Below are positions 14,046 through 35,184 of a stretch of DNA of 44,695 nucleotides, one piece after another (positions within the stretch are counted from its first letter, which is position 1; each line of letters starts with the position of its first letter). The stretch is from an uncultured Bacteroidota bacterium (GTDB taxonomy: Bacteria; Bacteroidota; Bacteroidia; Bacteroidales; P3): NCBI GenBank assembly GCA_902791695.1, contig CADAWR010000015.1, positions 1 to 44,695 of the forward strand, read 5' to 3'. The position numbers and the translations under genes were made by a program. The notes under the pieces were generated by a model. It did not search any database. It was not told the DNA's origin and saw only the letters and a program-made list of their open reading frames with translations.

Positions 14046-14255
14046 ATCCACACTCCATCTTTTTACCCCATTTCCGCTCCACATATCAGCCTTCATCAGC
14101 GCCCTTTTTCCGCCCCGAAACACCGATTCAGCACCGTATCCTCTCCGTCTGTTCTACGATTGTTCACAGGTTGTTTAACGGTTGTTTAACGGTTTATATC
14201 GTAGAACAATCGGAGAACAATCGTAGAACAGACGGAGCGGGTACGGAGAGGCATC
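14046..14255 (+). repeat. Composite palindromic 11-bp-unit element, copy A
   Basis: First of three related intergenic elements. 14046-14131 is a G-poor, C/T/A-rich tract. The border CACCGTATCCTCTCCGTC (14132-14149) follows. Then come four forward 11-bp units, TGTTCTACGAT, TGTTCACAGGT, and TGTTTAACGGT twice (14150-14193), a TTAT centre, and three inverted units, ATCGTAGAACA, ATCGGAGAACA, ATCGTAGAACA (14198-14230). The outer arms 14143-14165 and 14215-14237 are a perfect 23-bp inverted repeat. The right border 14231-14255 differs from that of copy C at only two of 25 bases. Function unknown: mobile-type intergenic repeat, protein-binding array or structured RNA are all open. Confidence 0.8.
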
Positions 14256-14358
14256 GGTGAGGCGACAATGTAAAAAATGTTAAAGAGGCAATATTTGTTT
14301 TGGTTTGTTGTTTTTATAACCAAAATATATAATAAGGAAACAAAAACAATAATAGACA

Positions 14359-15366
14359 ATGGAATCGGTAAACATTCAAGAACTGAACGAGCGCATCAAC
14401 CGCGAGAGTGCTTTCGTCGATGTGCTGCGCATGGAGATGGGCAAACAGATTGTGGGCCAAAAACACATGGTCGACGGGCTGCTGATAGGTCTGCTGAGCG
14501 GCGGCCATGTGCTGCTCGAGGGTGTGCCCGGACTGGCCAAGACGCTGACCATCACCACGCTGGCCAAGGCTATCGACGCCAAATTCAGCCGCATACAGTT
14601 CACGCCCGACCTGCTGCCGGCCGACCTTATCGGCACATTGATATACAGCCAGAAGAACGAGAGCTTCCAGGTGAAAAAGGGACCTATTTTCAGCCACTTC
14701 ATCCTGGCCGATGAAATAAACCGTGCCCCCGCCAAGGTGCAGAGCGCCCTGCTCGAAGCCATGCAGGAGCGCCAGGTGACCATAGGCGAGCAGACCTACC
14801 GCCTCGAGGAGCCGTTCCTGGTTATGGCCACGCAGAACCCCATAGAGCAGGAAGGCACCTATCCCCTGCCCGAGGCTCAGGTGGACCGCTTCATGCTGAA
14901 GGTGGTCATCAGCTACCCCAAGAGGGACGAGGAGCGTGCGATACTGCACCAGCAGGTAAATGAGGGCAGAACAGAAAATGAGCCCAAAGGCCCGAAAGCC
15001 ATATTGAAGCCCGAGGACATCCTCAAGGCGCGCGAGGTGGTGAAGGAGGTCTACATGGACGAGAAGATTGAGAACTACATCACCGACATTATCTTTGCCA
15101 CCCGCTTCCCTGGCCAATACGGTCTGGAGAAGATGGAGGGCCTGATAAGCTATGGCGCTTCGCCGCGCGGCAGCATCAACCTGGCGGCAGCGTCGAAAGC
15201 CTACGCCTTCATGAAGCGCCGCGGATACGTCATTCCCGAGGATGTGCGTGCCGTGGCCATGGATGTGCTGCGCCACCGCATTGGCCTCACCTACGAGGCC
15301 GAGGCCGAGAACGTCACCAGCGAAGAGGTGGTCAGCGAAGTGCTCAACCGCGTTGATGTGCCCTGA
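14359..15366 (+). CDS. MoxR-family AAA+ ATPase (first of two)
   Basis: A 335-residue AAA+ ATPase that acts as a chaperone for partner proteins with von Willebrand A domains. Walker A is GVPGLAKT (55-62), Walker B is FILADE (114-119), followed by [20 protein letters not shown] and the sensor 1 region [22 protein letters not shown]. It is the first gene of the moxR-bat run; the DUF58 gene starts 2 bp after its stop. In Bacteroides the matching gene stands upstream of batA. The partners are expected to be the DUF58, BatA and BatB proteins encoded next. Its protein is similar to the MoxR encoded at 28090-29031, though that one has different neighbours. Confidence 0.93.
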   Translation: MESVNIQELNERINRESAFVDVLRMEMGKQIVGQKHMVDGLLIGLLSGGHVLLEGVPGLAKTLTITTLAKAIDAKFSRIQFTPDLLPADLIGTLIYSQKNESFQVKKGPIFSHFILADEINRAPAKVQSALLEAMQERQVTIGEQTYRLEEPFLVMATQNPIEQEGTYPLPEAQVDRFMLKVVISYPKRDEERAILHQQVNEGRTENEPKGPKAILKPEDILKAREVVKEVYMDEKIENYITDIIFATRFPGQYGLEKMEGLISYGASPRGSINLAAASKAYAFMKRRGYVIPEDVRAVAMDVLRHRIGLTYEAEAENVTSEEVVSEVLNRVDVP

Positions 15367-15368
15367 TT

Positions 15369-16235
15369 ATGGATGAAGAGATAATAAAGAAAGTCCGCAA
15401 GATAGAGATAAAGGCGCGAGGGCTGAGCCAGCAGATGTTCAGCGGCGAGTACCACTCGGCCTTCAAGGGGCGCGGTATGGCCTTCAGCGAGGTGCGCGAG
15501 TACCAGTACGGCGACGACGTGCGCAACATCGACTGGAACGTCACCGCGCGTCTGGCGCATCCCTACGTGAAGATATTCGAGGAGGAGCGCGAGATGACGG
15601 TGATGCTGCTGGTGGACGTTAGCGGTAGCGGCCGTTTCGGCACCCAGGGCCAGTTCAAGGAAGAGCTGGCGGCCGAGGTGGCGGCAACACTGGCCTTCAG
15701 CGCCATAGCCAACAACGACAAGGTTGGCGTGATACTCTTCAGCGACCGCATCGAGAAGTTCATACCACCCAAGAAAGGACGGCAGCATATACTACGTATC
15801 ATACGAGAACTGATAACATTCAGACCTGAGAGCAACGGCACCGACATTGCGCAGGCGCTGCAGTATTTCAGCAACGTCATCAAACGGCGCTGCACGGCAT
15901 TCCTGCTCAGCGACTTCTTCTCTCCCAAGCCCTATTCGGACGCTCTGAAGATAGCCGCCGGCAAGCACGACATTGTGGCGTTGAGGCTGGTGGACCGTCG
16001 CGAAGAGCACCTGGCCGACCTGGGACTGATGAAGCTCTACGACCCCGAAAGCACCGAGACGCTGTGGGTGGACACCGGCAGCGAGGCGGTGCGCATGGTG
16101 GTCGACGCCCGTGCGGCGCAACAGGCCGAAGAAACAGCGCGCACCATGCGGCGCTACGGCATCGACATGGCGACACTGCACACGGGCGAAGATTTCGTGA
16201 AACCGCTGCTGACACTGATGAAAAAGAGAAGCTAA
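15369..16235 (+). CDS. DUF58 domain protein (VWA-like fold)
   Basis: A 288-residue protein of the DUF58 family that regularly accompanies MoxR ATPases. The DUF58 signature FSEVREYQYGDDVRNIDWNVTAR spans about 39-61. A VWA-like region follows with the metal-site motif DVSGS (D83, S85, S87), so it may bind Mg2+. No signal peptide or membrane helix is seen; it is probably cytosolic or peripheral. The next ATG follows its stop codon with no gap, which implies translational coupling. The role in the MoxR/Bat complex is inferred from gene order. Confidence 0.9.
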   Translation: MDEEIIKKVRKIEIKARGLSQQMFSGEYHSAFKGRGMAFSEVREYQYGDDVRNIDWNVTARLAHPYVKIFEEEREMTVMLLVDVSGSGRFGTQGQFKEELAAEVAATLAFSAIANNDKVGVILFSDRIEKFIPPKKGRQHILRIIRELITFRPESNGTDIAQALQYFSNVIKRRCTAFLLSDFFSPKPYSDALKIAAGKHDIVALRLVDRREEHLADLGLMKLYDPESTETLWVDTGSEAVRMVVDARAAQQAEETARTMRRYGIDMATLHTGEDFVKPLLTLMKKRS

Positions 16236-17111
16236 ATGAAGAAGACAATCATCATAGGTTTAATTGGTTTATTGGGCTTGATGGGGCTTATGGGCGAAGC
16301 GAGGGGGCAGGCTGTGGCCACACTTGCAAGCGACACCATAGCCCTCGGAGACCAGACGACGCTGACTGTACGCAATGCGCTGACCTTCCCGTCGACGGAC
16401 CTGCTGAGCCAGAACGGCGTTGTGGCCCTCAGGCAGGACTTCGACACCGCCGCACGGTCGCAGACGACAGTGATTACCAGCTTCGAGCCTGGCGAGCATT
16501 ACATAAAGCTCAGCGACGAGGACTCGCTGCTGCTGGTGGTTACCGACGTGGAGATTGACAGTGCCACGGCCGAGCTGCGCGACATTGCGCCTATAGAGCG
16601 CGTGCCCTACACCTTCTGGGAGGTGTTCCGCTGGGTGCTGCTTGGTCTGGCGTTGGCGGCAGCGGCTTTCGGCATCTGGTGGCTGCTGACGCACCGCATG
16701 CAGGTGCAGGCAGCCCTGACCAAAAGCGAGCCCGTCGACAACCGCACACCCGAAGAGCGCGCCCTGCAGACACTGGAGGCTCTGCGCGTGGAACGCCTGT
16801 GGCAGAGCGGGCGCGTGAAGGAATACCACACGCGGCTCACCGATGCCGTGCGCCAGTTCATCGAGGAAAGCACCGGCATACGCGCCACCGACATGACGAG
16901 CGACGAATGCGTGGATGCGCTGACGGGCAAAAACATCAATGTCAGCGCGCTGCGTGACATATTCAATACCGCCGACATGGTGAAGTTCGCCAAGAGCGAA
17001 CCGTCGCCGCACGAGCACGAACGCTCGATGGACGAGGCAGTAGGGTTCGTGGGCGAGATGTGGCAGGTTGTGAAACCAGCCGAAAACAAGGAGGAGGTGA
17101 AGAATGCATAA
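16236..17111 (+). CDS. Bat-operon membrane protein (DUF4381-like position), unknown function
   Basis: A 291-residue envelope protein that stands between the DUF58 gene and batA, the place where aerotolerance operons of Bacteroides carry a small membrane protein. It has a signal peptide built of Gly-Leu repeats (IIIGLIGLLGLMGLMGEARG), an external domain to ~residue 125, one strong membrane helix (about 132-150, VLLGLALAAAAFGIWWLL), and a helical cytosolic tail (RTPEERALQTLEALRVERLW, then VDALTGKNINVSALRDIF) like the tail of BatD. No catalytic motif was recognised. The signal-peptide DNA is a 9-bp tandem repeat. Its stop overlaps the batA start by 8 bp. Confidence 0.75.
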   Translation: MKKTIIIGLIGLLGLMGLMGEARGQAVATLASDTIALGDQTTLTVRNALTFPSTDLLSQNGVVALRQDFDTAARSQTTVITSFEPGEHYIKLSDEDSLLLVVTDVEIDSATAELRDIAPIERVPYTFWEVFRWVLLGLALAAAAFGIWWLLTHRMQVQAALTKSEPVDNRTPEERALQTLEALRVERLWQSGRVKEYHTRLTDAVRQFIEESTGIRATDMTSDECVDALTGKNINVSALRDIFNTADMVKFAKSEPSPHEHERSMDEAVGFVGEMWQVVKPAENKEEVKNA

Positions 17112-18096
17112 CATAAGCTTCGCACAACCGTGGATGTTGCTGGGCCTGGTGCTGGTGCCGCTGATGGCGGCCTACTATATCTGGCGCTACCGCAAGCAGG
17201 AAGCGGCGGTGCAGCATTCGGACATAGCGGTGTTCGCCGGCGTGAAGAAAACGTTGCGCGTGCGCCTGCGCTGGCTGCCCTTTGCACTGATGACACTTGC
17301 CGTCGGAGCCATGGTGGTGGCGCTGGCGCGTCCGCAGAGCCGCCTGAGCCGTCAGGAGATGAAGGTGGAAGGAATAGACATTGTGCTGGCCATGGACATC
17401 AGCGGCAGTATGCTGGCCGAGGACTTCCGCCCCAACCGACTGGAAGCCGCCAAGAAGGTGGCCGCCGATTTCATCGATGGGCGCAAGAGCGACCGCATGG
17501 GACTGGTGGTGTTCTCGGGAGAGGCATTCACACAGGTACCGCTGACGGTGGACCACCATGTGCTATTGAAGCAGCTGGGTGCCCTAAAGAGCGGAATAAT
17601 ACGTGACGGCACGGCTCTGGGCGACGGATTGGCAACAGCCATCAACCGCATAAAGGACAGCGAGGCCAAGAGCAAGGTGATAATACTGCTTACCGACGGT
17701 GTGAACAACCAGGGAAGCGTCGACCCGCAGAGTGCCGCCGAGATAGCGGCTATGTACGGCATACGCCTCTACACCATCGGCGTGGGCTCGCTGGGCAAAG
17801 CCCCCTACCCTTTCCGCGACCAGTTTGGGCGGGTGCACTACCAGAACATCGACGTGGAAATCGACGAGCCGTTGATGCAGCAGATGGCAGCGTCGACAGA
17901 AGACGGGCGCTATTTCCGCGCTACCAACAAGAAAGCTCTGGAAGAGATATTCTCGCAGATTGACGAGATGGAGAAAAGCAAGATAGATGTAACCCAATAT
18001 GCGCAGACCAAAGACGAGCAGGGCCGGTGGCTGTGGGCAGCCTTCGCCGCACTCCTGCTGGCATTGCTGATGCGCTGGGGATGGATGAGATGGTGA
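17104..18096 (+). CDS. batA: BatA-like VWA-domain membrane protein
   Basis: A 330-residue inner-membrane protein. Two N-terminal helices (about 11-26 and 58-75) precede a von Willebrand factor A domain with a complete metal site: DISGS (D98, S100, S102) and later LTDGVNNQG. A C-terminal helix (about 305-325) ends the chain. In Bacteroides fragilis the bat genes were linked to aerotolerance; the molecular action is unresolved and probably concerns envelope protein assembly with MoxR. The start at 17104 overlaps the preceding gene by 8 bp. A 65-bp gap with a 7-bp tandem repeat separates it from the batB-batC fusion, the only sizeable gap in this part of the operon. Confidence 0.9.
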   Translation: MHNISFAQPWMLLGLVLVPLMAAYYIWRYRKQEAAVQHSDIAVFAGVKKTLRVRLRWLPFALMTLAVGAMVVALARPQSRLSRQEMKVEGIDIVLAMDISGSMLAEDFRPNRLEAAKKVAADFIDGRKSDRMGLVVFSGEAFTQVPLTVDHHVLLKQLGALKSGIIRDGTALGDGLATAINRIKDSEAKSKVIILLTDGVNNQGSVDPQSAAEIAAMYGIRLYTIGVGSLGKAPYPFRDQFGRVHYQNIDVEIDEPLMQQMAASTEDGRYFRATNKKALEEIFSQIDEMEKSKIDVTQYAQTKDEQGRWLWAAFAALLLALLMRWGWMRW

Positions 18097-18100
18097 TAAA

Positions 18101-18149
18101 GGTTACAGGTTAAAGGTTAACGGTTAAAGATTAAAGGTTACAGGTTAAA
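18101..18149 (+). repeat. Heptanucleotide tandem repeat in the batA-batB gap
   Basis: Seven consecutive 7-bp units fill most of the 65-bp gap: GGTTACA, GGTTAAA, GGTTAAC, GGTTAAA, GATTAAA, GGTTACA, GGTTAAA. The repeat ends 12 bp before the batB ATG at 18162, so its length sets the distance between the genes. The unit is a cyclic form of KARAGGT, also found in two signal-peptide coding regions of this window. Confidence 0.85.
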
Positions 18150-18161
18150 GGATTCTGAAAG

Positions 18162-19985
18162 ATGGTTCATTTTGAGCATATAGAATATTTGTGGCTGCTG
18201 CTTGTGGTGGCGGCATGTGGATTGTTATGGATATTTGCCGAGTGGCGCAACCGGCGCAAGTTGGAGGCGTGGGCCGACAGGCAAATGTTCGGCCGACTGA
18301 TACCCGACAGGTCACGTTGGCGTCCGACGGTGAAGGTGGTGCTGGCTCTCATAGGCTTCGCTCTGCTGGTGGTCGCACTCGCCAATCCCCAGATGGGAAC
18401 AAAGATTGAGAAGGGCAAACGCGCCGGTAGCGATGTGGCGATATGCCTCGACCTCTCGAACAGCATGATGGCCGAGGACATACAGCCCAACCGTCTGGAG
18501 CGCAGCAAGCGTGTGGTGAACAACATCATGTCCACGCTGGCGGGCGACCGCATAAGCCTGGTGGTGTTCGCCGGTGCAAGCTACATACAGATGCCGCTCA
18601 CCAACGACTACAGCGCCGCCAAGCTCTTTCTCGACCAGGTGAGCTGCGACATGATTGCCTCGCAGGGTACAGCCATAGGCGACGCCATAGAGAAAGCCAT
18701 GCAGACCTTTGGCTATGACGACCCCGACCGCGAATGGGAGAAGAACAAAGGGCGCGCTATTATCGTCATAAGCGACGGAGAGAACCATGAAGACGACGCC
18801 GTAGGAGCTGCCCGTAAAGCCGCCAAAGAAGGTGTGCGCGTCTGCACCATAGGCATGGGTCTGCCCGACGGGGCACCCATACCGGAATACGACCCACGTG
18901 GGCGAAAGAACAGCTATAAGCGCGAACGCGGCGGCACGATAATAATGACCAAACTGAACGAAGAGATGATGCGGCAGATTGCCGATGCCGGCAATGGCGT
19001 GTATGTACGTGCCAGCAATGCCGGCAGCGGATTGGGCGAAATCACCAAAGTCATCGAAGGGTTGGAAAAAGAGGACTACGGCGAGGCGGTCTTCAGCGCC
19101 TACGAAAGCCGTTATCAGTACCCGCTGGCGGCAGCCATAGTTTGCCTGATGGCATCGGTGCTACTGTTTGAGCGCAAAAACCGCAAGTGGTCGCTCAGCA
19201 GCCTTACCGGTGCTGCAATACTCTTCTTGCTGATTATGCCCACTGACGCTTCGGCTCAGGCCAACCGCAAGCAGATGCGTGAGGGCAACAGGCACTACAA
19301 CAAAGAGAAATACGACCAAGCAGAGGTTACATATCGCCGTGCATTGGAGAGCGACACTACAGACTTCCGAGGACAATACAACCTTGCATCGAGCCTATAC
19401 CGCCAGAAGAAATACGACGAAGCGGCCATGCACTACCTGCAGGCTCTCGCGGCACCGGACGTCAGCGACAGCCGTCGTGCAAAAGCATTGCATAACGCCG
19501 GCAACAGCATGGTAAAGGCAGGGCTGGAGAGCGAGCAACAAGGCATGCAATACTTCCAGCAAGCAGTGAAATCGTACCAAGAAGCCCTGAAGTTGGACCC
19601 AAAGAACGACGACACACGCTACAACCTCGCCTATGCACGTCGCTTATTGCAGCAAGCCCAGCAGCAACAGCAGCAACAAGGCGGCGGTGGCAACGACCAG
19701 CAAAACAAGGACCAGCAACAGCAGAACCAGCAACAGCAACAAGGCGATAACCAGAACAAAGACCAACAGCAGCAGAACCAGCAGCAACAAGGCAACCAGC
19801 AGGACCAGCAACAGCAGCAAGGCAAGGAGCAGCAAAAGCAGCAGCAAGCAAAACCGCAGGAGCAGCGCAAGCAGGATGCCGAGCGCATGTTGGAAGCTGT
19901 GAAAAACAACGAGCGTCAGACGTTGAAAGAACAAGCACGCAAAGAACAAGTGAGCACCAACCGTCATACCGACAAAGACTGGTAG
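18162..19985 (+). CDS. batB: BatB-BatC fusion: VWA domain plus TPR and Gln-rich tail
   Basis: A 607-residue protein joining what are two genes in Bacteroides fragilis. Residues 1-340 are BatB-like: membrane helices at about 10-26 and 58-75, a VWA domain with DLSNS (D97, S99, S101) and ISDGENHED, then a helix at about 320-336. Residues 344-366 (SLSSLTGAAILFLLI, then MPTDASAQA) look like the signal peptide of a former separate BatC. Residues 367-495 hold TPR motifs (EGNRHYNKEKYDQAEVTYRRAL, then NLASSLYRQKKYDEAAMHYLQAL). From ~497 to 569 the chain is almost pure Gln/Asn/Asp/Lys. No frame break is seen. The TPR part is expected in the periplasm, perhaps binding BatA, BatD or BatE. Confidence 0.9.
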   Translation: MVHFEHIEYLWLLLVVAACGLLWIFAEWRNRRKLEAWADRQMFGRLIPDRSRWRPTVKVVLALIGFALLVVALANPQMGTKIEKGKRAGSDVAICLDLSNSMMAEDIQPNRLERSKRVVNNIMSTLAGDRISLVVFAGASYIQMPLTNDYSAAKLFLDQVSCDMIASQGTAIGDAIEKAMQTFGYDDPDREWEKNKGRAIIVISDGENHEDDAVGAARKAAKEGVRVCTIGMGLPDGAPIPEYDPRGRKNSYKRERGGTIIMTKLNEEMMRQIADAGNGVYVRASNAGSGLGEITKVIEGLEKEDYGEAVFSAYESRYQYPLAAAIVCLMASVLLFERKNRKWSLSSLTGAAILFLLIMPTDASAQANRKQMREGNRHYNKEKYDQAEVTYRRALESDTTDFRGQYNLASSLYRQKKYDEAAMHYLQALAAPDVSDSRRAKALHNAGNSMVKAGLESEQQGMQYFQQAVKSYQEALKLDPKNDDTRYNLAYARRLLQQAQQQQQQQGGGGNDQQNKDQQQQNQQQQQGDNQNKDQQQQNQQQQGNQQDQQQQQGKEQQKQQQAKPQEQRKQDAERMLEAVKNNERQTLKEQARKEQVSTNRHTDKDW

Positions 19986-19989
19986 AAAC

Positions 19990-24219: not shown

Positions 24220-24233
24220 CTCCTAACTGAGAA

Positions 24234-24812
24234 ATGCTCATCCTCGGCATCGACCCCGGCAGCCAGATACTCGGCTACAGTCTCCTCAGAGTCAGCGAGG
24301 CATCCGACCTCACGATAGAGGAGATGGACGTCCTCTACCTCAAGCGCACACCTGATTTCGACGAACGCATCAAGCAGATTTTCCACTCCGTCAACGACAT
24401 CATAGCCGCCAACCGACCCGACCACCTCGCCATCGAGGCCCCCTTCCTCGGCAAGAGCGCCCAGTCGATGCTCAAGCTCGGCCGCGCTCAGGGCATTGCC
24501 ATTGCCGCCGCCCTCGCCCACGACATACCATACACCGAATACGAGCCATCGCTCATCAAGCAAACCGTCACCGGCAACGGCAATGCATCCAAGGAACAAG
24601 TGGCCGACCTTCTGCGCTCAATTCTGCGCTTCGACCAGCACCCCCACTACCTTGACGCCACCGACGCCCTCGCCGTCGCCTACACCCACTACGCCCAGAC
24701 CTCCTCTCCCCTATCCACCGCCAACCTACGACTCCACAGCCCCAAGAAACACAAATCATCCAAAAAACAATGGTCAGACTTCGTCAACAGCAACCCCGAC
24801 AGGTTAGCATAG
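24234..24812 (+). CDS. ruvC: Holliday junction resolvase RuvC
   Basis: Cuts four-way DNA junctions symmetrically during recombination, with RuvAB. At 192 residues it carries the four catalytic acids in their usual places: D7 (GIDPGS), E68 (IEAPFLGKSAQSMLKLGRAQG), D141 and D144 (HYLDATDALAVA). The C-terminal extension past ~165 is basic. ruvAB are not in the window. The lipoprotein gene starts inside ruvC, with a 43-bp overlap. Confidence 0.96.
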   Translation: MLILGIDPGSQILGYSLLRVSEASDLTIEEMDVLYLKRTPDFDERIKQIFHSVNDIIAANRPDHLAIEAPFLGKSAQSMLKLGRAQGIAIAAALAHDIPYTEYEPSLIKQTVTGNGNASKEQVADLLRSILRFDQHPHYLDATDALAVAYTHYAQTSSPLSTANLRLHSPKKHKSSKKQWSDFVNSNPDRLA

Positions 24813-26029
24813 CCCTCCTCATCCTCACCTGTCTCCTGATAGCCTCATGCGGCAGCAAGAGCAACAAGCTCTACGACCCCGCCAAGGTCAACTTCAACGT
24901 CGCCTACAACCCCATCTTCGACAACCAGTTCTACCCCTCGCTGATACTCGCCACCGAATCCGTACAGTCACTCACCAACACCGCCGAGCAGGGGCTCATC
25001 CCCTTCACCTTCAGCGTCACAGCACCTAGCGACGGCTGCGTGCTGCGCGTCGTCATCGACTCGTCGGTGCTCAACTACGTCACCATCCTGCAGGAAGTCC
25101 TACCCCACCGCGGCGAGCAGTACACCATCCAGGGCACCGCCAAGTGGAAATACGACAACCTGCGCCGCACACGGCAGGGCTACCCCGTCGACCTCACCTT
25201 CACCTGCTACATCAACGACGAGGAAGTAGACATAGAGAACCTGCGCATCAACTGCCGCTCCATCAACGAATGCCCCCTCTCCCTCGCCGGAGGCAACCGT
25301 CGCGAAGACACGCGCTGGCTCTTCGCCGCATACGTCAATGAGGACCATCCACAGATTGAGAACATACTCTCCGACATCCTCGACCAAGGCATTGTCAACT
25401 CCTTCAACGGCTACCAGAACGGGCCCGAGAGCGTGCGCCGCCAGGTCCTCGCAGTGTGGCACTACGTCCTGCGGCGCGGCATAGCCTACTCATCCATCTC
25501 CTGCACCTCCAACCCCTCCACCTCGGCCAACGTCCAGCACATACGCCTCTTCGACGAAGTGTGGAACACCCGGCAGGCCAACTGCATAGACGCCTGCGTT
25601 TTCCTCGCCTCCATCCTGCGCAAGATAGGCATCCGCACCGTCATCTTCGTCGAACCCTGCCACGCCTACCTCGGCTACTACACCGACAAAGGGCGCCGCA
25701 AACTTGAGCTCATCGAGACCACCATCACCTCGTGGGTCAACATACCCGAACTGCAGCGAAGCCTCGATGCCGACGGGCGCCTGCCACAGGAACAGTTCGA
25801 CAAAATATCCAAGTTCCTCTCGCAGAAAGACATCCAGCTTTGGAACGAAGGCCGCATGACCTTCGACCAACTTACGCAAGCCCTTGCCAAGAGCCTGCTC
25901 GAGAAAGCCAAAGTCTACAACGACGACACCTACCAGGCCAATCGCAACAACTTCGCCGACACAACCAACATCACCTACCAGCAGCTCGACATCGAGCAGC
26001 TGCGCTCCAAGATCCAGCCCATCCGTTAA
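24770..26029 (+). CDS. Lipoprotein with transglutaminase-like domain
   Basis: A 419-residue lipoprotein. The lipobox LIASCGS places the lipidated Cys at C27. The first ~240 residues form a beta-rich domain of unknown type. A transglutaminase-like core follows: the nucleophile is probably C272 in QANCIDACVFLASILRKIGI, the His is probably H298 in PCHAYLGYY, and an acidic partner could be in KLELIETT. Such domains can be cysteine proteases or crosslinkers; activity is not shown. MoxR-DUF58 clusters often include a transglutaminase-like membrane protein, and this gene closes such an operon. The start at 24770 lies inside ruvC, because no later start precedes the signal. Confidence 0.8.
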   Translation: MVRLRQQQPRQVSIALLILTCLLIASCGSKSNKLYDPAKVNFNVAYNPIFDNQFYPSLILATESVQSLTNTAEQGLIPFTFSVTAPSDGCVLRVVIDSSVLNYVTILQEVLPHRGEQYTIQGTAKWKYDNLRRTRQGYPVDLTFTCYINDEEVDIENLRINCRSINECPLSLAGGNRREDTRWLFAAYVNEDHPQIENILSDILDQGIVNSFNGYQNGPESVRRQVLAVWHYVLRRGIAYSSISCTSNPSTSANVQHIRLFDEVWNTRQANCIDACVFLASILRKIGIRTVIFVEPCHAYLGYYTDKGRRKLELIETTITSWVNIPELQRSLDADGRLPQEQFDKISKFLSQKDIQLWNEGRMTFDQLTQALAKSLLEKAKVYNDDTYQANRNNFADTTNITYQQLDIEQLRSKIQPIR

Positions 26030-26053
26030 GCGCCTCCGCAACAACGCCGCAAC

Positions 26054-26232
26054 GACGCCCCTCCGAATCCGGCCCGACCGTTTTACGGTTGTTCACCGGT
26101 TGTTTAACGGTTTAAACCGTTAAACAACCGGTGAACAACCGTAGAACAGACGGAGAGGGTACGGAGAGAGTACGGTGGGGGGATGATGGGGGTAAAAGGT
26201 TATGGGGTTGTGGTTTGGTTTAGGGGGAAAAG
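26054..26232 (-). repeat. Composite palindromic 11-bp-unit element, copy B (reverse orientation)
   Basis: The second copy, inverted relative to A and C. 26084-26143 is a perfect 60-bp palindrome centred between 26113 and 26114, made of 11-bp units (TGTTCACCGGT, TGTTTAACGGT and their complements) about a TTTAAA centre. The right part reads GACGGAGAGGGTACGG, then GAGAGTACGGTG. Bases 26176-26232 contain no C at all, which mirrors the G-poor tracts of copies A and C on the other strand. The left end (26054-26072) matches the GAGGCATC-type border of the other copies less well. It lies between the two convergent operons. Confidence 0.8.
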
Positions 26233-26273
26233 ATTACGGGGCTGAAGCAACAAAGGTTGCTACGGCCCCGTAA
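26228..26273 (-). terminator. Intrinsic terminator of the guaB-caspase-like run
   Basis: On the minus strand a long hairpin with outer arms TTACGGGGC (26234-26242) and GCCCCGTAA (26265-26273) and inner arms AGCAAC/GTTGCT, followed by TCTTTTCC. It lies just after the stop of the caspase-like gene at 26295. Confidence 0.75.
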
Positions 26274-26294
26274 GCTGCAAGGTGCGTGTATGTG

Positions 26295-28079
26295 TTATCG
26301 GATGTGGAGGTGCTGCCAGTCGGCGGCGTATTTGCCGTCGACGAAGCCGGAGATGACCTGCCACTTGCCCTGGAGGGCTGACTCTTTGTTGAGTTTGCGC
26401 TCGACGGCCTCGTAGATGTCCTGATAGGTGTAGGAGTCGAAGTCGGAGGTGGCAGCAAGGCCTTTAATTTCCTTGAGGAGGAAATAGGTGAGGAAGCCGT
26501 GGTGCTGGGCGTCGAAGGAGAAGGCCGTCTTGTCGGTGGCGGCGGCGAGGAGGACTATGGCGTCTGACGCCTTGTTGGCTTTGCGCTTGGCCTTCTTACC
26601 TTTTGCGTCTGGGGTGACTTTGCGGTCGGAGCGGAGCATGGGGGCGCCGTTGCGCTGGTTGCCGTCGAAGGAGGCGTCGACGATGACGGTGAGGCGGTTG
26701 ACGGGGTAGGTCTCGCGCTTGCCCTTGCCCTTGAGGGCGGAGCAGAGGGAGTCGAGGGAGATGCACTGGCGGGCGAAGAGCGCGGCGTCCTTGCGCGAGA
26801 GGGCTATGTCGTAGGCTGTGGGCTCGACGATGGTTTTGCGCTTCTTGCCACAGCCTTTCTTGCCGCCGAGGGCTTTGATGCCGTCGAGGCGGAGGTTGTT
26901 GGGGATGAGGTAGGCGTTGCCGTCGAAGTCGAGGAAGCCGTGCCCTGCGTAGTAGACGAAGAGGTTGGCCTGGGGCACTGGCTGGCCGCCGGATTGCGTG
27001 GCCACGGCCTGAGAGAGGTCGGTGAGCCAGTGGATACCTTCATAGATGGCTGCGCGTGATGCGTTGTTGACGACCTTGACCTGGCGCTCGGGGACGCCGA
27101 GGGCGCGGACGAAGTACTGGCGGACGATGTCGCCGTCGTTGGAGGCGAAGGGGACTGAGGGCAGGAAGGCGTGGTCGTAGTCTTCGTTGGCGATGATGAG
27201 GACATAGGCGTTCTCATAGGGGGTTGAGCTCTGGGGGATGTTGAAGTCGACGTAGTCGTCCTGAATCTTGTCGGCAGTCATGAGGTCGATGGCCTCGCGG
27301 AAGGCGTCGTGGACGGTGATTTCAATGGAGGAGCGGCGGTAGAAGGAGCCGGTGTCGGTGTAGGAGCGGGTGACATAGGAGAAGTCGTTGACGGTGCGGG
27401 AGAGGTTGCGGACGTTGTTCTGGAGGAAGTGGCGCACGGATTGGGCACGGATGTAGGCGAGCTGGCAGTTGTTGTTGATGCCGGCAGTGTCGACGGAGAT
27501 GCGGAGGCGCTCGTTGTTGAAGACGACGGGCATGTAGCGGAAGTTGCCGTAGCGGCCGTCGTAGGGGATGACGCGAGAGAGCTCGACGCCGTCGGTGGTG
27601 GAGTAGATTTTGACGGAGACGGCTTTACCGGGGCGGAAGATGTCGTCTAGGATGCCTTCGACGAAGGTTTTGGTGAGGTTGCAGATGGCGCGGACGGAGT
27701 TGGAGGAGTCGCAGTCGAAGACGCCGAGGGGGTAGTCGTCGGTGTAGCCTTCGAGGTGGCGGCAGTTGTAGGAGATGTCGAAGAGGTAGTTGAGCTCGGG
27801 GGAGCCGTCGTCGCGGGTACCGTCGACGAGCGCGGTGCGGATGGAGATATAGGTCTCGTCGTAGAGCTTCTCGCTGTTGGGGAGGCTGAGGAGAATCTGC
27901 TCGGCGCGGCGCTGCATGGTGCGCTGGCGGTTGGCAATGTCCTGCGAGAGGAACTCGCGGATGGCTGACTGGTACTCGGAGTTGAGTTGCTGTTCGCCGG
28001 ATTGTGCTTGCGAGGTGAGAGGTGATAGGAGAAGGGTGAAGGGTAACAAGAATGCGGCAATAAATAATGTCTTTTTCAT
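26295..28079 (-). CDS. Secreted caspase-fold (C14-like) protein with Cys-to-Ser change
   Basis: A 594-residue exported protein: signal peptide (LFIAAFLLPFTLLLSPLTSQ), a region of unknown type to ~285, then a caspase-like domain. The domain start is AYVLIIANEDYDHAFLPSVPFASNDG, the catalytic His motif is YYAGHG (H380), and the end is HHGFLTYFLLKEIKG. The active-site strand, normally DACFSGAQRNG in related Bacteroidales proteins, reads VIVDASFDGNQRNG, so the nucleophile is Ser (S470). It is therefore probably a non-proteolytic pseudo-caspase or has altered chemistry. A Lys/Arg-rich insert (about 484-504) follows the site. The gene comes 10 bp after a MoxR gene and ends at a strong terminator. 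Its signal-peptide DNA is a 7-bp repeat. Confidence 0.82.
   Translation of the reverse strand: MKKTLFIAAFLLPFTLLLSPLTSQAQSGEQQLNSEYQSAIREFLSQDIANRQRTMQRRAEQILLSLPNSEKLYDETYISIRTALVDGTRDDGSPELNYLFDISYNCRHLEGYTDDYPLGVFDCDSSNSVRAICNLTKTFVEGILDDIFRPGKAVSVKIYSTTDGVELSRVIPYDGRYGNFRYMPVVFNNERLRISVDTAGINNNCQLAYIRAQSVRHFLQNNVRNLSRTVNDFSYVTRSYTDTGSFYRRSSIEITVHDAFREAIDLMTADKIQDDYVDFNIPQSSTPYENAYVLIIANEDYDHAFLPSVPFASNDGDIVRQYFVRALGVPERQVKVVNNASRAAIYEGIHWLTDLSQAVATQSGGQPVPQANLFVYYAGHGFLDFDGNAYLIPNNLRLDGIKALGGKKGCGKKRKTIVEPTAYDIALSRKDAALFARQCISLDSLCSALKGKGKRETYPVNRLTVIVDASFDGNQRNGAPMLRSDRKVTPDAKGKKAKRKANKASDAIVLLAAATDKTAFSFDAQHHGFLTYFLLKEIKGLAATSDFDSYTYQDIYEAVERKLNKESALQGKWQVISGFVDGKYAADWQHLHIR
28010..28051 (-). 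repeat. Heptanucleotide repeat inside the caspase-like signal-peptide codons
   Basis: On the + strand the units are GCGAGGT, GAGAGGT, GATAGGA, GAAGGGT, GAAGGGT, AACAAGA. They encode the LLPFTLLLSPLTSQA part of the signal peptide on the minus strand. This is the same KARAGGT family as the repeats at 18101 and 21829, but more degenerate. Confidence 0.65.
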
Positions 28080-28089
28080 ATCTGCGGGG

Positions 28090-29031
28090 TTATTGTTTAT
28101 TCAACAGTGATTTGATAATCTGGTCGGGAGTGACGCCGTCGGCTTCGGCATAATAGCTGGTGACGATGCGGTGGCGCAGGACCGAGAGGGCGACGGCGTC
28201 GACATCCTCTGAGTCGGGGGAATACTTGCCGCGGATGGCGGCGTGGCTCTTGGCACCGATGACAAGATACTGTGAAGCACGGGGGCCGGCGCCGTAGGAG
28301 ATGTATTTGTTCTCCTGACGGGTGCTGGCGACGAGGCGGACGGCATACTCTACCACATTGTCGGGCACAGGCATACGGCGAATGGCTTGCTGGAAGGCAA
28401 GGATCTGCTGGGCGTCGAGCACCTGGGCCACGTTGTGGGAAGAGTCGGCGGTAGTCTGCTTGACGATCTGCACCTCGTCGTCGAAAGAGGGGTAGTCGAG
28501 CCTGACGTTGAACATGAAGCGGTCGAGCTGAGCCTCGGGCAGGGGGTAGGTACCCTCCTGTTCGATGGGGTTCTGGGTGGCGAGCACAAAGAAAGGCGAC
28601 GGCAGGGGCCATGTGGTGCCTGAGACAGTGACTGAGCGCTCCTGCATAGCCTCGAGGAGAGCGGCCTGAGTCTTGGGAGGGGTGCGGTTGATCTCGTCGG
28701 CGAGGACGACGCCAGCGAAGACGGGGCCTTTGACGAAACGCAGTTGGCGGTCGCGGTCGATGATCTCGCTGCCAGTGATATCGGAAGGCATGAGGTCGGG
28801 GGTGAACTGAATGCGGCTGAAGGTGAGGCCGAGGGTGCGAGCGAGGGTGCTGACCATAAGTGTTTTGGCCAATCCCGGCACACCGAGGAGTAGGCAGTGC
28901 CCGCCAGAGAAGAGGGTTAGCAGGAGGCTGTCGACAGCCTCGGATTGGCCCACAATCACCTTGGCAATCTCGGAGCGGAGCTCGGCATAGCGCTCAACCA
29001 AAGTATCGAGTTGTTCTTTGTCTTGCATCAT
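28090..29031 (-). CDS. MoxR-family AAA+ ATPase (second copy)
   Basis: A 313-residue AAA+ ATPase with Walker A GVPGLAKT, Walker B VVLADE, then [21 protein letters not shown] and [22 protein letters not shown]. It is clearly a paralogue of the MoxR at 14359, but has no DUF58 or VWA gene beside it. It follows the SurA-like gene with a 4-bp overlap and precedes the secreted caspase-like gene by 10 bp. A link between a cytosolic AAA+ chaperone and exported proteins must be indirect; partners could be the VWA proteins of the facing operon. The start may be either of two adjacent ATGs (29031 or 29028). Confidence 0.92.
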
Positions 29032-30359: not shown

Positions 30360-30365
30360 ATTCTT

Positions 30366-31214
30366 CTATCTCTTTATATGTCCGCCATCTTGAGCTTCCT
30401 TGAGGAGGTCGGCCTGCAGACGGCTCAGTATATCAAGCTTGCGGTGGTTTAGTATGATAGCGCGGATATTATCCTTCTGTAGTTCGAGGGGTGCGATATC
30501 ATCGGAGATTTTATAGTCGAGAATCCTAACGTACCAAGAGAGCGAATCGTCGGAGAGGACAATGGACCGGTTCTGTTTCAGGAAAAGACCCTCGTTGTAT
30601 GTAGTGACAGGCACCAGCGACTGGAGAGAGTAGAACGGCATCCAAGTATCGGCGTCGTAGCTGCCGGAGAAGCCGGCGCGGGAGGCAATAGCCTGCATTT
30701 CCACGATATCCTCGTCACGGAACTGATGTTTGTTGATGATGCTCTTGAGCCTGCTGTCGGCAATGTTGCGTTTAGGGGCAGAGACATAGACAGCCTTCAC
30801 GATAGTGTTCTTAAGGTGGAACTGCTCGTTGTTGGCCTCATAATACTCCTCTATCTCACTATCGGACACGCTGGTATCCATCAACTGCGACACAATCTGC
30901 TGCTCATAGGCATAGATAAGGAGGCTGTTGCGGTACTCGTTCATCTGACGGCTAAAGTCGTCTTTGACGTTCTTCTCAGCCTTTGCAAGAATAACTTTCT
31001 GGCGTACCCACTGGTCGACATAATTGTCCACGATAGCGGTGCTATCCTCAGCGCTGACGCCCTCACCGACAAGTCCGGCGAGGTCGTCCATACGTAGCTC
31101 ATAGTCATAGACCTTGGCCACCAATGGCGAGAGTTCTTCGCCACGGTGACAAGCCACAGACAACAGGCAGCAAAGTGCGGCCAGCAGGCTAGTACTTAAT
31201 CTGTTTGACAACAT
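30366..31214 (-). CDS. SurA-like lipoprotein lacking rotamase domains
   Basis: A 282-residue lipoprotein: LLSVACHRG gives the lipobox with the lipidated Cys near residue 22. The region YDNYVDQWVRQKVILAKAE and the SVSDSEIEEYYEANNEQFHL stretch match the helical chaperone part of SurA/PrsA. No rotamase signature (such as GFHIIQL) is seen, so it is likely a chaperone without isomerase activity, or a fast-evolving one. It lies between two PpiC-type genes, with a 26-bp overlap upstream and a 6-bp gap downstream, as in other Bacteroidales. Confidence 0.8.
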   Translation of the reverse strand: MLSNRLSTSLLAALCCLLSVACHRGEELSPLVAKVYDYELRMDDLAGLVGEGVSAEDSTAIVDNYVDQWVRQKVILAKAEKNVKDDFSRQMNEYRNSLLIYAYEQQIVSQLMDTSVSDSEIEEYYEANNEQFHLKNTIVKAVYVSAPKRNIADSRLKSIINKHQFRDEDIVEMQAIASRAGFSGSYDADTWMPFYSLQSLVPVTTYNEGLFLKQNRSIVLSDDSLSWYVRILDYKISDDIAPLELQKDNIRAIILNHRKLDILSRLQADLLKEAQDGGHIKR

Positions 31215-33267
31215 CGTAGTTTATCTTGACGTTGTATTTCCTGCGGAGTTCCGCGTTATGCTGCTGCTCCATCTCATTCTGGTATGCGTTGAGGTAGTAA
31301 CCGCGGGCTGCCATCTGCTCCTTGAGCATCGGAGGCAGCACTTCTTCAACCACCACAGCGCGGTAACCCTTCGCCTTGGGACTCAGATACACACCCTTGG
31401 CCCACTGGTTGTCGGCCAGCATTTTCTGGCGCCCATGTTCAATGATGTCAGGCTCCACGGAGACCATCGACGGCACACGTGCCACCATGGCGGAGAGCAG
31501 CATCTCCTTCATTTCCATGCTCCCCTTGTTCTTTTTGAGAGCCTTGTTGAGGATCTTGGCCGCTTTGGCCGGCGCGAGACAAGCGCTGTCGACAACATCT
31601 ATCTTGACAATGCGGGCGCGCTTGTGCCAAAAATAGACCGAATCCTCGGGGCGGTCCATCCGCTTGGTGAGGCTTTCACGGGCATAGAAGGCAGCAAAAC
31701 CAGCACTATCGTGCAGTGTCTTCTTCCACACCATGTCGTTGTTGTAGTTGAATATCATCAATCCGCGACGGTATTCGTCTACGACAGCTGCAAAATCGGG
31801 ATGCTCTGCTTCGAGGCGGCTGTCGGCATACACCATAACAACGCTGTCTATGAATTCACCGTAACGAAGGTTGACAAAATACTCCGACTTCAGCGCACGT
31901 CCGGCTCTCTGATGGACAGAGATATAGCGTGCCAGGTCAAGTGTAGTGTAGGTGCGGTCGCCCACAATGAGAATAGGATGTACGTCGGTAACCATAGTGT
32001 CGTTGTATTTCCACTGGTTACGTGTAGCCTCAACGGGCACTATTTCATAGAGTTGCTGGAGCGAAGCCTGCATCTTGACAGGCTCGTTTTTCTTGCGCTT
32101 CTTGCCCTTGGGCTGCTCGACGGGAGTCTTGGTAAGGTCTACCACATTGTAGCGCTCGCGGCAGGTGCGCACGAACGACTTGCGGCTGTTCTCGCCACGC
32201 TGGTCGCGCGACATGCGCTGCTTGTAGTAGGGCACCATGTTCTCATAGGGTGCCAGCGTATCGTGACGTATCAGTTTGATGATATGCCAGCCATACTGGG
32301 TAAAGAAAGGCTTGGAGAACTCGCCGTCCTTGAGGTTCTGTGCAACTTTAACGTATTCCGGCGGCAGGTTGTTCAGAGGAGCGTCATTCATCAGGCCTCC
32401 GTTGTCGCGTGTGGTGCGGTCGTCGCTGCGGAGAGCCACGGTGGCGAAATCCTCACCGTTCACGAGGCGATTGTAGCATATGTCTATCTCGTTGCGACGC
32501 AGGTTGCTGTCCTGCGAACTAAGCCAGATATGCGCCATATCGCACTTGCCGGTCATCTGCACCTTGTCCAGCAACTTGATGAGATGGTATCCGAAGCGGG
32601 TACGCACAGGCATACTCACCTCGCCCACCTTCAGCCCGTAGGCAGCATTCTCGAATGGGTAAACCATATCGAATGCCGTGAAAAAGCCCAGGTCGCCCTC
32701 ATAGGGACGCACCTGTGCGTTGGGGTTCTGCTTCAGCACCTCCTCGGCAGAGACGGCAAAGAAATCCTCACCGTTCACAATACGGTTGCGGAGCTCCATG
32801 ATGCGGTTGTAGGTCTTCGCGCTATCCTCGGCCGAAGCGTCAGGAGCCAGATAGAGCAGTATGTGGGCGGCATGCAGCGAGTAGTGGTTGCGCTCGTAGG
32901 CCTCGTGCAGTATGCGCTCCAGCTCCACACTGTCTATCAGGTAGGGGGCAGCAAGCTCGGCGCGGTAGGTCTTCAGTTCTTGGCGCAGAGCCTCTGTGGT
33001 ATCGAAACCGAGGGCATAGGCGTCGGCGAGCTTGGCGCGGAAGTTGGCAAACAGCTCCACATACTCCTCCAGTGCCTGACGCTTCTCCGCTGCCGGAGTC
33101 TGGGGATTCTTGGCGAGCCGGTCACCAACCGACGTCATAAACTCCTTCATGAACTCCGACTTCTTTATCTGACGGCCTGCAACCTCCATAACCACCGGGT
33201 CGCTATTCTGCGCTCCGGCAGCCACCATCAGCAGCAACGCCGCAATAGTAAGCAAAACTTTCTTCAT
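31189..33267 (-). CDS. Large periplasmic peptidyl-prolyl isomerase with two parvulin domains
   Basis: A 692-residue exported protein. The signal peptide (VLLTIAALLLMVAAGAQ) is followed by a helical N-terminal domain. Two rotamase domains follow (about 130-235 with AAHILLYLAP and YGLKVGEVSMPVRTRFGYHL, then about 240-345 with MAHIWLSSQ and YGWHIIKL). A long C-terminal part (345-692) has a Lys-rich linker (KGKKRKKNEP). Probable role: periplasmic folding factor for outer-membrane proteins. It is the first chaperone gene after guaB, 29 bp downstream, and overlaps the next gene by 26 bp. Confidence 0.9.
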   Translation of the reverse strand: MKKVLLTIAALLLMVAAGAQNSDPVVMEVAGRQIKKSEFMKEFMTSVGDRLAKNPQTPAAEKRQALEEYVELFANFRAKLADAYALGFDTTEALRQELKTYRAELAAPYLIDSVELERILHEAYERNHYSLHAAHILLYLAPDASAEDSAKTYNRIMELRNRIVNGEDFFAVSAEEVLKQNPNAQVRPYEGDLGFFTAFDMVYPFENAAYGLKVGEVSMPVRTRFGYHLIKLLDKVQMTGKCDMAHIWLSSQDSNLRRNEIDICYNRLVNGEDFATVALRSDDRTTRDNGGLMNDAPLNNLPPEYVKVAQNLKDGEFSKPFFTQYGWHIIKLIRHDTLAPYENMVPYYKQRMSRDQRGENSRKSFVRTCRERYNVVDLTKTPVEQPKGKKRKKNEPVKMQASLQQLYEIVPVEATRNQWKYNDTMVTDVHPILIVGDRTYTTLDLARYISVHQRAGRALKSEYFVNLRYGEFIDSVVMVYADSRLEAEHPDFAAVVDEYRRGLMIFNYNNDMVWKKTLHDSAGFAAFYARESLTKRMDRPEDSVYFWHKRARIVKIDVVDSACLAPAKAAKILNKALKKNKGSMEMKEMLLSAMVARVPSMVSVEPDIIEHGRQKMLADNQWAKGVYLSPKAKGYRAVVVEEVLPPMLKEQMAARGYYLNAYQNEMEQQHNAELRRKYNVKINYDVVKQIKY

Positions 33268-33296
33268 TTGTCTTGTCTTCTTAAACTTCTCAACTC

Positions 33297-34769
33297 CTAT
33301 CTCGAATAGTTGGGTGCCTCACGGGTGATGGCGATATCGTGCGGATGGCTCTCGGTGCGGCCGGCGGCGGTGATGCGTATGAACTTGGCCAGCTGCAGGT
33401 CGCCAATAGTGCGGCTGCCGGTGTAGCCCATACCGGCCTTCAGGCCACCCACCATCTGGTAGAGTATCTCGCTGAGGGTGCCTTTGTACGGCACGCGGCC
33501 AACCACGCCTTCCGGCACCAGCTTCTTGGCGTCGGTCTCCTTGTCCTGGAAATAGCGGTCCTTGCTGCCAGCCTGCATAGCCTCGAGCGAGCCCATGCCG
33601 CGGTAGCTCTTGAATTTACGGCCTTCGTAGATGATGGTCTCTCCCGGAGCCTCGTCGGTGCCTGCCACCAGGCTGCCCACCATGACGGTGCTGGCGCCAG
33701 CGGCCAGAGCCTTGACGATGTCGCCGCTGTAGCGTATGCCGCCGTCGGCGATGACGGGCACGTCGTAGCCCTTCTGCTTCAGGGCGCCGACCACCTCGCA
33801 CACAGCCGTCAACTGCGGCACGCCGATGCCGGCGATGATACGCGTCGAGCAGATGCTGCCGGGGCCGATGCCCACCTTGATGGCGTCAGCGCCTGCTTCG
33901 GCAAGCATCAGCGCAGCCTCGCCGGTGGCTATGTTACCAACCACGACGTCGATGTCGCTGTATTTGGCTTTGACACTCTTCAGAGCCTTCACCACATTGG
34001 CACTGTGGCCGTGGGCAGTGTCGATAACGATGGCGTCGGCACCGGCCTTCACCAGGGCGTCGACACGATCCATCATGTCGGGCGTGATGCCCACACCGGC
34101 AGCCACGCGCAGACGACCGTTGGCGTCCTTGCAAGCCATCGGGCGTTCCTTGGTCTTCATGATATCACGATAGGTGATGAGGCCCATAAACTGGCCCTTC
34201 TCGTTGACCACAGGCAGCTTCTCTATCTTGTGCTGCTGCAATATATCGGTAGCCTCGGCAAAGGTGGTGCCGACATGGGTGGTGATGAGCTTGGTAATCA
34301 TTATTTCGCTCAGCGGACGCTCCATGTCGCGCTCGAAGCGCAGGTCGCGGTTGGTGACCATACCTATGAGCATGCGGTTCTCGTCGACAATGGGAATGCC
34401 GCCGATGCCGTATTCTTCCATCAAATGCAGGGCATCCTTCACCTTGGCCTCCTTGTTCAGAGTCACGGGGTCGATAATCATGCCGTTCTCGGCGCGCTTC
34501 ACCTTGCGCACCTCGTTGGCCTGGCGTTCGATGCTCATGTTCTTGTGTAGCACACCGATGCCGCCCTCCTGCGCCATGCCGATAGCCATGGCGGCCTCGG
34601 TCACCGTGTCCATGGCGGCCGACACGAGGGGCATGTTGAGAGCGATGTGGCGCGAGAAACGCGTCGCCACTGATACTTCGCGGGGAATGATTTCGGAATA
34701 GGACGGCACAAGGAGCACATCATCGTAAGTGAGGCCTTCGCCGATGAATTTTGTGGTGTCTGTATACAT
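33297..34769 (-). CDS. guaB: IMP dehydrogenase
   Basis: Oxidises IMP to XMP with NAD+, the committed step of GMP synthesis. The 490-residue length is standard. The catalytic Cys loop is GPGSICSTR (C307), and the CBS pair spans about 97-210 ([45 protein letters not shown]). Other landmarks are [49 protein letters not shown] and [10 protein letters not shown]. It leads a six-gene minus-strand run. A TATCTTTG -7 box lies ~35 bp upstream. Confidence 0.97.
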
Positions 34770-34803
34770 ACTTTTTAGATATTATTCACTATAAAATAAT
34801 TTG

Positions 34804-34811
34804 CAAAGATA
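34804..34811 (-). promoter_or_regulatory. -7 box for guaB
   Basis: TATCTTTG on the minus strand, about 35 nt before the guaB ATG at 34769. A TTTG at minus-strand 34827-34824 is only 12 nt away, and no good TTTG was seen at the usual 19 nt, so only the -7 box is called. Confidence 0.6.
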
Positions 34812-34845
34812 CTACTTTTTTTCCAAACGGTGGCATTTTTTTTCA

Positions 34846-35087
34846 CAACCAATCCCACAACCCGCATAACCACCTGACGCACAACGCAACCCACCACCAG
34901 CCAAATCGCGCCGCCATTTGCCAAACCATCTTTTTCCGCCATCCCGCATTTTGTTTTTAGCCCCACCGTACCCTCTCCGTCTGTTCACCGGTTGTTCTAC
35001 GATTGTTCGACGGTTTAAATCGGTGAACAACCGGTGAACAACCGGTGAACAGACGGAGAAGAGACGGAGCGGGTAGGCAGAGGCATC
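34846..35087 (+). repeat. Composite palindromic 11-bp-unit element, copy C
   Basis: Third copy. 34846-34963 is C/A-rich and G-poor. The border CACCGTACCCTCTCCGTC (34964-34981) follows. Then come units TGTTCACCGGT, TGTTCTACGAT, TGTTCGACGGT (34982-35014), a TTAA centre, and inverted units ATCGGTGAACA, ACCGGTGAACA, ACCGGTGAACA (35019-35051). The outer arms 34975-34997 and 35036-35058 are a perfect 23-bp inverted repeat. GACGGAG appears twice, and the end (35063-35087) matches copy A at 23 of 25 bases. Confidence 0.8.
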
Positions 35088-35154
35088 TGTGTGCAGGTGC
35101 CACAAGCTTGTATGCAATTCGCTATTTATAATTCACGGCATCCGTTTTTTTTCG

Positions 35155-35162: not shown

Positions 35163-35184
35163 CAGCGGAAACCTAATATATAAA

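Follow-up and report, generated by a model that had tools for sequence, protein, structure and literature searches.

What kind of element are the three inverted arrays that lie between genes in one stretch of DNA from an uncultured, rumen-type Bacteroidota bacterium? The stretch, called the window here, is 44,695 nucleotides long (contig CADAWR010000015.1 of assembly GCA_902791695.1). All three copies are intergenic and consist of tandem 11-bp units, TGTTYNMCGRT, inverted round a 4-nt centre. The reading preferred here, with a probability slightly above one half (about 0.52), is that they are dispersed, non-coding and hairpin-forming repeats of the REPIN kind (REP doublets forming hairpins, where REP stands for repetitive extragenic palindrome), without a RAYT (REP-associated tyrosine transposase) in their own genome. 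Whole elements with a position-specific consensus were found at many intergenic sites, near transcription-unit boundaries. Most of the few sites that were checked are shared with one related species, and closely similar families are amplified in a few species only. A non-autonomous intergenic repeat was also the best fit among the three options offered by a first-pass annotation of the window.

Whole elements in the window and in its genome

The genome to which the window belongs (G000) is a 2.17-Mb draft in 37 contigs and is 95% complete. The first-pass annotation had made its proposal depend on further copies in this genome, and these are abundant. When up to 2 mismatches were allowed, a two-unit pattern gave 219 forward and 201 reverse overlapping matches, several per copy, and the reversed pattern, which served as control, gave 1. 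A sample of 748 kb, composed of contigs C1 and C2, 320 kb of contig C3 and the window, was read in depth. It holds 33 palindromic copies, with a centre of 4 nt in 29 and of 15 nt in 4. The commonest variable triplets of the 29 copies are, from the outside to the inside, CTA, CAC, and finally TAA in one arm and either CGA or CTA in the other. The units are position-specific, and therefore the consensus belongs to whole elements and not merely to loose units. Exactly one of the innermost units is TAA in 25 of the 29 copies, where 14.6 were expected (permutation p 5e-5). Therefore, a central perfect palindrome seems to be avoided in the copies of this genome. The outer two arm units match better within than between copies (p 0.0015 and 0.014). 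Selection on RNA pairing was rejected as a cause, because the innermost pair matches less within copies and a second genome, G029, has no excess. The information content per 11-mer drops outward from about 1.7-1.9 to 0.1-0.2 across 77-90 bp, on both sides and in both genomes.

A one-armed, asymmetric subtype was also found. Its 36 copies genome-wide (at most 2 mismatches) include 29 that are exact to a 34-base pattern with one free position. The consensus is an outer-type palindrome (CTCCGTACCCG units, then CTCCGAC ... GTCGGAG) with an insert at the centre on one arm, and the insert is composed of TGTTCACCGGT TGTTTAACGGT and a T run. The one-armed copies are nearly identical as whole elements at unrelated sites, and their ends are sharper than those of the palindromic form. 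The surroundings of 30 of the 36 were read, which placed 14 in divergent gaps, 9 in codirectional gaps on the same strand, 3 in codirectional gaps on the opposite strand and 2 in convergent gaps, with 2 undecided. Across 99 same-genus genomes (a single draw, own genome included), the one-armed core has 36, 47 and 43 copies in three genomes, 1 copy each in two and 0 in 94.

The sites of these copies were compared between species. In G073, ten of the 43 one-armed copies were examined, eight chosen among 19 exact ones and two others. Seven of the ten lie beside genes that also border a one-armed copy in G000; for six of them this holds on both sides and for one on a single side. Another adjoins a G000 gap with a palindromic copy, and the last two had no match in the DNA compared. 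Besides, 99 orthologous gap pairs of the sampled genomes held an array in both members in 5 cases, in one in 15 and in neither in 79 (pooled p 0.008). The unit families differ in four of the five pairs with arrays in both.

The order in which an element grew can be approached at IMPDH, the gene next to one of the window copies. The closest relatives by IMPDH, G068 and G047, have upstream units of the CTCCG type only, which resemble the outer layer of the G000 element. CTCCGA-type units are also present in G009 and G094 (L105, L104), which have the same divergent neighbour. Because of the outward fall of information content, the outer-type units of the relatives at IMPDH and the central insert of the one-armed subtype, the comparison suggests that new 11-bp units are added at the centre. 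In the proposed mechanism, the element would grow from its centre in 11-bp steps, and the outer units would be the older ones. Copies would spread and stay alike through copying that uses the hairpin, or through homologous repair (gene conversion). The host role, if any, could be that of a two-sided barrier between adjacent transcription units.

The layout of the three window copies is as follows.

14121..14259, unstranded: copy 1, whole (4+3 units and borders), in a divergent gap
14150..14193, + strand: copy 1, left arm of four 11-bp units
14194-14197: copy 1, centre TTAT
14198..14230, - strand: copy 1, right arm of three inverted 11-bp units
10764-13943 (-) and 14359-15366 (+): copy 1, neighbours, a protein with a C-terminal secretion-sorting domain and a MoxR-like AAA ATPase
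26057..26178, unstranded: copy 2, whole (3+3 units and borders), in a convergent gap
26079..26111, + strand: copy 2, left arm of three 11-bp units, the outermost one degenerate
26112-26115: copy 2, centre
26116..26148, - strand: copy 2, right arm of three inverted units; G-rich 11-bp outer units reach about 26178
24770-26029 (+) and 26295-28079 (-): copy 2, neighbours, a gene with no Pfam match and one with a Peptidase_C14 caspase domain
34960..35087, unstranded: copy 3, whole (3+3 units and borders), in a divergent gap
34982..35014, + strand: copy 3, left arm of three 11-bp units
35015-35018: copy 3, centre TTAA
35019..35051, - strand: copy 3, right arm of three inverted units
34846..34959, + strand: copy 3, flank, C-rich and G-poor towards the element, a composition bias only
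33297-34769 (-) and 35185-36291 (+): copy 3, neighbours, IMPDH and a protein with DUF4369 and AhpC-TSA domains

The first-pass annotation had recognised one intergenic architecture in these three regions and had counted its units, and both points were recovered here. With up to 3 mismatches, the two-unit pattern has 14 matches in the window, every one within the three copy regions; 100 shuffles of the window gave a mean of 0.29 and a maximum of 3. Folded as single-stranded RNA, copies 1, 2 and 3 reach -80.9, -74.8 and -74.6 kcal/mol (z -13.4, -10.9 and -9.1), with stems of about 20-50 bp in which CCGTC pairs with GACGG. Some finer claims of the annotation need correction. Its C/A-rich outer tract exists as a composition bias and not as a shared sequence, since conservation is at background about 77-90 bp from the centre in the 29 copies. 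A CTCCGTACCCG-type border is present, and it does not bound the 11-bp period, which runs on into the borders; these keep the 11-bp step, with the CTCCGTACCCG type on one side and the ACGGAGAGAGT type on the other. The proposed GAGGCATC-like end is missing from the consensus of the 29 copies.

Constant spacing and changing units across the genus

The most unusual part of the result is invisible from the window alone. It is a genus-wide 11-bp period with changing units. The contigs sampled from other genomes were those already known from earlier matches and are thus non-random. An exact two-unit TGTT match was obtained in 15 of the 99 same-genus genomes, own included, with 1-688 matches each and with many in a few only. 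A family sample of 61 genomes from 12 genera gave such a match in 3, and these three belong to the own genus. The named relatives are Bacteroidales metagenome-assembled genomes, among them Candidatus Colimorpha; rumen is the source of many and horse gut of some. Many same-genus genomes without the TGTT unit bear other 11-bp units. The TTCTTCAGTAG family occurs in 6 of the 99 genomes and is abundant in two. The genomes read in depth have one dominant unit family each, with the 11-bp step.

The upstream region of IMPDH was scanned in the best 80 of 166 relatives, one of which was too short, leaving 79 loci. An 11-bp array lies within 500 bp upstream in 38 of the 79, and each other lag from 8 to 30 was seen in at most 3 loci, lag 22 excepted (25). 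The same divergent neighbour is present in 38 of 80 loci. Nineteen of these 38 orthologous gaps bear 11-bp arrays, which are built from many different units, and one of the nineteen gaps (L130) is 2.7 kb long. The comparison outside the genus covers this one locus and its surroundings. Its 30 same-genus loci were those that scored best among 94 genomes with a match, and the loci from the family and the order were likewise the best-scoring ones. At the strict threshold, an 11-bp array was found in 22 of 30 loci of the same genus, and in none of the 22 loci from other genera of the family or of the 28 from other families. The looser threshold gave 23 of 30, 2 of 22 and 1 of 28, respectively. AT-rich arrays with a period of 21 occur near IMPDH in other genera of the family, nine at the strict threshold (L275, L314, L316, L318, L319, L322, L323, L326).

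Period 11 as the sole short period was rejected, because arrays of 7-, 8- and 9-bp units also occur commonly in the genus. Thirty same-genus genomes sampled at 40 kb each (L181-L240) gave 66 arrays at lag 11, in 25 genomes, 39 at lag 8, 21 at lag 9, 7 at period 10 and 94 at period 7, the last under a looser low-complexity filter. The arrays of period 7-10 are mostly non-palindromic and have unit sequences of their own. A stem score of at least 14 was reached by 23 of the 66 11-bp arrays, against 4/94, 3/39, 0/21 and 0/7 for periods 7, 8, 9 and 10 (pooled 7/161; Fisher p 8e-9). The same score was reached by 36 of 55 11-bp arrays in G000 and 24 of 37 in G029, and by 0, 2 and 4 of 150 random windows in the three sets. 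Palindromy is what separates the 11-bp class from the other short periods.

These results raise a further possibility, for which the odds are clearly below even. The genus may carry an element class that is set by a ruler, in which the 11-bp step, the inverted arms and the C-rich incoming strands are kept and the unit sequence is rewritten in concert. There would perhaps be about a hundred sites per genome, with units differing between species at one orthologous gap. If this is true, it would need dedicated machinery at transcription-unit boundaries. This would be either an enzyme that measures out 11 bp as it copies or a co-evolving DNA-binding protein. Sequence is what usually identifies an intergenic repeat, and here it is spacing and layout that stay constant. 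The sequence turns over, and therefore ordinary repeat searches would see only unrelated, species-specific repeats.

Two other repeats lie in the window. A heptamer array of TAAAGGT (18097-18151, 7.9 copies) follows the gene that ends at 18096. An inverted pair of 124 nt, 75% complementary, is formed by 14811-14934 and 28474-28597 and perhaps reflects related genes on opposite strands.

Placement between genes and the competing explanations

Gene calls were made by a custom script, and the array thresholds and the low-complexity filter were chosen by the analyst. Gaps of at least 200 bp were counted in 748 kb of the own genome, 400 kb of G029 and 40 kb of each of 29 further genomes. The first-pass annotation had proposed to count copies relative to genes. 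The count gave 0 arrays inside called genes in the own genome and G029 samples, and divergent gaps were favoured. Of the 120 divergent gaps, 77 bore an array, compared with 49 of the 232 codirectional gaps (p 4e-15 for this contrast) and 17 of the 42 convergent ones. When gaps were matched at 300-500 bp, 34 of 47 divergent gaps bore arrays against 17 of 56 codirectional ones (p 3e-5). Shorter gaps of 30-200 bp, outside the main count, bore arrays in 0 of 167 cases in the own genome, 2 of 93 in G029 and 5 of 332 in the 29 genomes. In codirectional gaps of 200-900 bp, the array is closer to the upstream stop than to the downstream start in 32 of 39.

The Y1 transposase family PF01797 had no match in G000, G029 and G019. 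In the 22 genomes scanned, a match at E ≤ 0.001 was obtained in 13, with 12 above the cut-off. The absence of a Y1 transposase from G000 is likely rather than certain, as the genome is 95% complete. The first-pass annotation had considered that the copies might be the ends of a known REP; a RAYT-driven REP was rejected, with 0 Y1 matches in the own genome. Because the RAYT test failed there, the family is not filed as a RAYT-driven REP.

Several points weigh against reading the family as REPIN-like repeats. First, no mobilising enzyme was identified in a search that covered the Y1 type, other transposase types not being searched, and Y1 is present in G073 and G093, both of which are also rich in copies. 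Second, the shared sites argue against frequent jumping, and the sharing itself is uneven. Of four more one-armed copies (two in G019, one in G023 and one in G015), only that of G023 has its site in common with G000, and the three of G019 and G015 had no matching site in the own-genome DNA compared. Divergent gap pairs alone, with an array in both in 5, in one in 8 and in neither in 7, were not significant (p 0.65). Third, several orthologous pairs are 94-99% identical in their flanks as well, and therefore some of the site sharing may come from recent exchange. Fourth, G068 and G047 (L101, L102) do not have the divergent neighbour of the own genome at IMPDH, so that the gap is not the same one. 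Finally, the matching of the arms within a copy is weak beyond the family level, and no sharp ends were seen in the palindromic form, whose conservation decays gradually outward.

In contig C2 of G000, at about 144063-152618, an 8.5-kb block is 96.9% identical to G023 and its flanks are 79-86% identical. The block holds the own genome's sole exact TTCTTCAGTAG pair, and this family has 101 matches in G023. The idea that horizontal blocks have their edges at elements was rejected, because this block neither starts nor stops at a listed array. At three locus pairs between two species (L353/L374, L352/L376 and L338/L373), nucleotide identity jumps at the element from 0.70 to 0.97, from 0.71 to 0.97 and from 0.85 to 0.99, as if the elements were recombination junctions.

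A two-sided Rho-dependent boundary, which would block read-through and antisense transcription from both directions, is an unlikely explanation of the whole, although it accounts for part of the data. The incoming RNA would be C-rich and G-poor with cytosines about 11 nt apart, followed by a hairpin that pauses the polymerase. A stretch with C over G ahead of the hairpin was found on the incoming strand, judged on composition only. In 80-bp flanks read towards the element, the C/G ratio is 1.59 in divergent, 1.51 in codirectional and 1.34 in convergent gaps, and array-free gaps have 0.99-1.04. It is above the control in 19 of 21 genomes having both gap kinds (sign test) and, per gap, in the comparison of 117 with 196 gaps (p 8e-20; 2e-11 without G000). 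The position of codirectional arrays towards the upstream stop also suits a boundary. However, array strand shows no dependence on gene direction in codirectional gaps (sense strand C>G in 17, G>C in 21 and a tie in 1; n=39), and the 9 to 3 split of the one-armed copies in such gaps is not significant (p 0.15). Divergent gaps, which no neighbour's sense transcript enters, are most often occupied. In G029 the bias is weak (1.20 against 0.98), and G001 and G063 show the reverse; the arm has C>G in 20 of 26 sets, some of which are the same genome twice. The C-rich flank could also descend from shared older outer units, and a single dominant unit sequence per genome is unexplained by Rho.

The same low probability is given to an array of protein binding sites, one per helical turn, in which the specificity of a DNA-binding protein and its sites would change together between species. 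It too accounts for some of what was observed. In the genomes read in depth, the 11-bp step goes with one dominant unit family, which would fit, as would the palindromic copies of G029, all 21 of which keep a 5-nt spacer, in 14 different sequences. However, tandem binding sites need no inversion, yet the 11-bp arrays are often palindromic. No candidate DNA-binding protein turned up, and no search aimed at one was made. The CarH motif TnnACA suits only some unit variants when compared by eye. If either the boundary or the binding explanation is true, the genus, which is large, mostly uncultured and found in rumen and gut, would offer a natural series in which a single functional constraint is solved in many different ways, and the host role of REP-like elements would become testable by comparison.

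A selection-free by-product of replication slippage and hairpin template switching, with arrays tolerated in intergenic DNA, is very improbable: the many non-palindromic 7-, 8- and 9-bp arrays of the genus and the 21-bp AT-rich arrays of other genera suit it, but slippage alone yields neither near-identical whole elements at unrelated sites, nor a palindromic class bound to one period, nor a divergent-gap excess at matched length. A structured RNA, which the first-pass annotation had listed, is unsupported, because 77 of the 143 arrays in gaps of at least 200 bp, about half, lie in divergent gaps, entered by no neighbour's sense transcript; at gathering scores, no Rfam family matched the window.

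Comparison with known systems

A description of an inverted build of 11-bp units was not found in the open-licence PubMed Central literature, as judged from listings. The known systems nearest to the family each share a part of its features. Rho utilisation sites have been sought as stretches in which C exceeds G and cytosines recur every 11-13 nt, with a downstream pause hairpin (PMC6407284), and the elements resemble them in these points. They differ in that the elements are not tied to gene direction and have one dominant unit sequence per genome. The CarH operators of the MerR family are tandem 11-bp repeats bound on one face of the DNA (PMC9304148), and tandem 11-bp direct repeats are found within the arms here. 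The CarH sites are direct repeats in the operators of particular promoters, and their motif is not generally matched by eye. With regard to intrinsic terminators, a scan of 34700-35250 found no stem with a T run at the palindromic copy 3, and the one-armed subtype carries a T run.

Phage or plasmid origin was rejected on one copy and one collection each: copy 1 was unmatched in phages and copy 3 in plasmids. The parC site of plasmid R1 has 11-bp iterons. A pattern of three TGTTYNNCGRT units had matches in five IMG/VR contigs (L361-L365), where the units are tandem and non-palindromic, in stretches with a GC content of 0.27-0.54. These five arrays sit within frames that by eye resemble phage replication initiators, as an origin iteron might. 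The matches may be due to chance among many 11-bp arrays and serve as a lead only.

Among dispersed repeats, miniature inverted-repeat transposable elements are similarly short, non-coding and of high copy number, and they differ in that no defined terminal repeats or parent element was identified here. PINSR is a 188-bp repeat of Prevotella intermedia and nigrescens with 177 and 184 copies in two strains (PMC4755523). It is likewise intergenic, is known from four related species and has about three quarters of its sites in common between strains. It is set apart by description and not by sequence, as the relevant passages of PMC4755523 describe it without terminal inverted repeats. The CGTC-tagged REPs are palindromes with loops of 4-5 nt and without a dedicated transposase, and they are also reported from Bacteroidetes (PMC3733652). 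According to the same source, they have stems of 8-9 bp, a CGTC tag that stays unpaired and, in most cases, a CCA tail. The present family was not assigned to them, because its stems are about 20-50 bp long and its CCGTC is paired to GACGG. The REPs of PMC3733652 are described mainly between unidirectional and convergent genes, whereas the elements here favour divergent gaps.

The closest likeness is with REPINs mobilised by RAYTs, which are high-copy, intergenic, inverted hairpin pairs and are non-autonomous (PMC3116915, PMC8049555). The present family is like them in consisting of many non-coding intergenic hairpins that are specific to lineages. The elements here differ in their tandem 11-bp units, in their apparent layering from the centre outward and in the lack of a Y1 match in G000, G029 and G019. 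The family is set apart from REPINs by its modular 11-bp build and by a turnover of units in which spacing and layout are kept.

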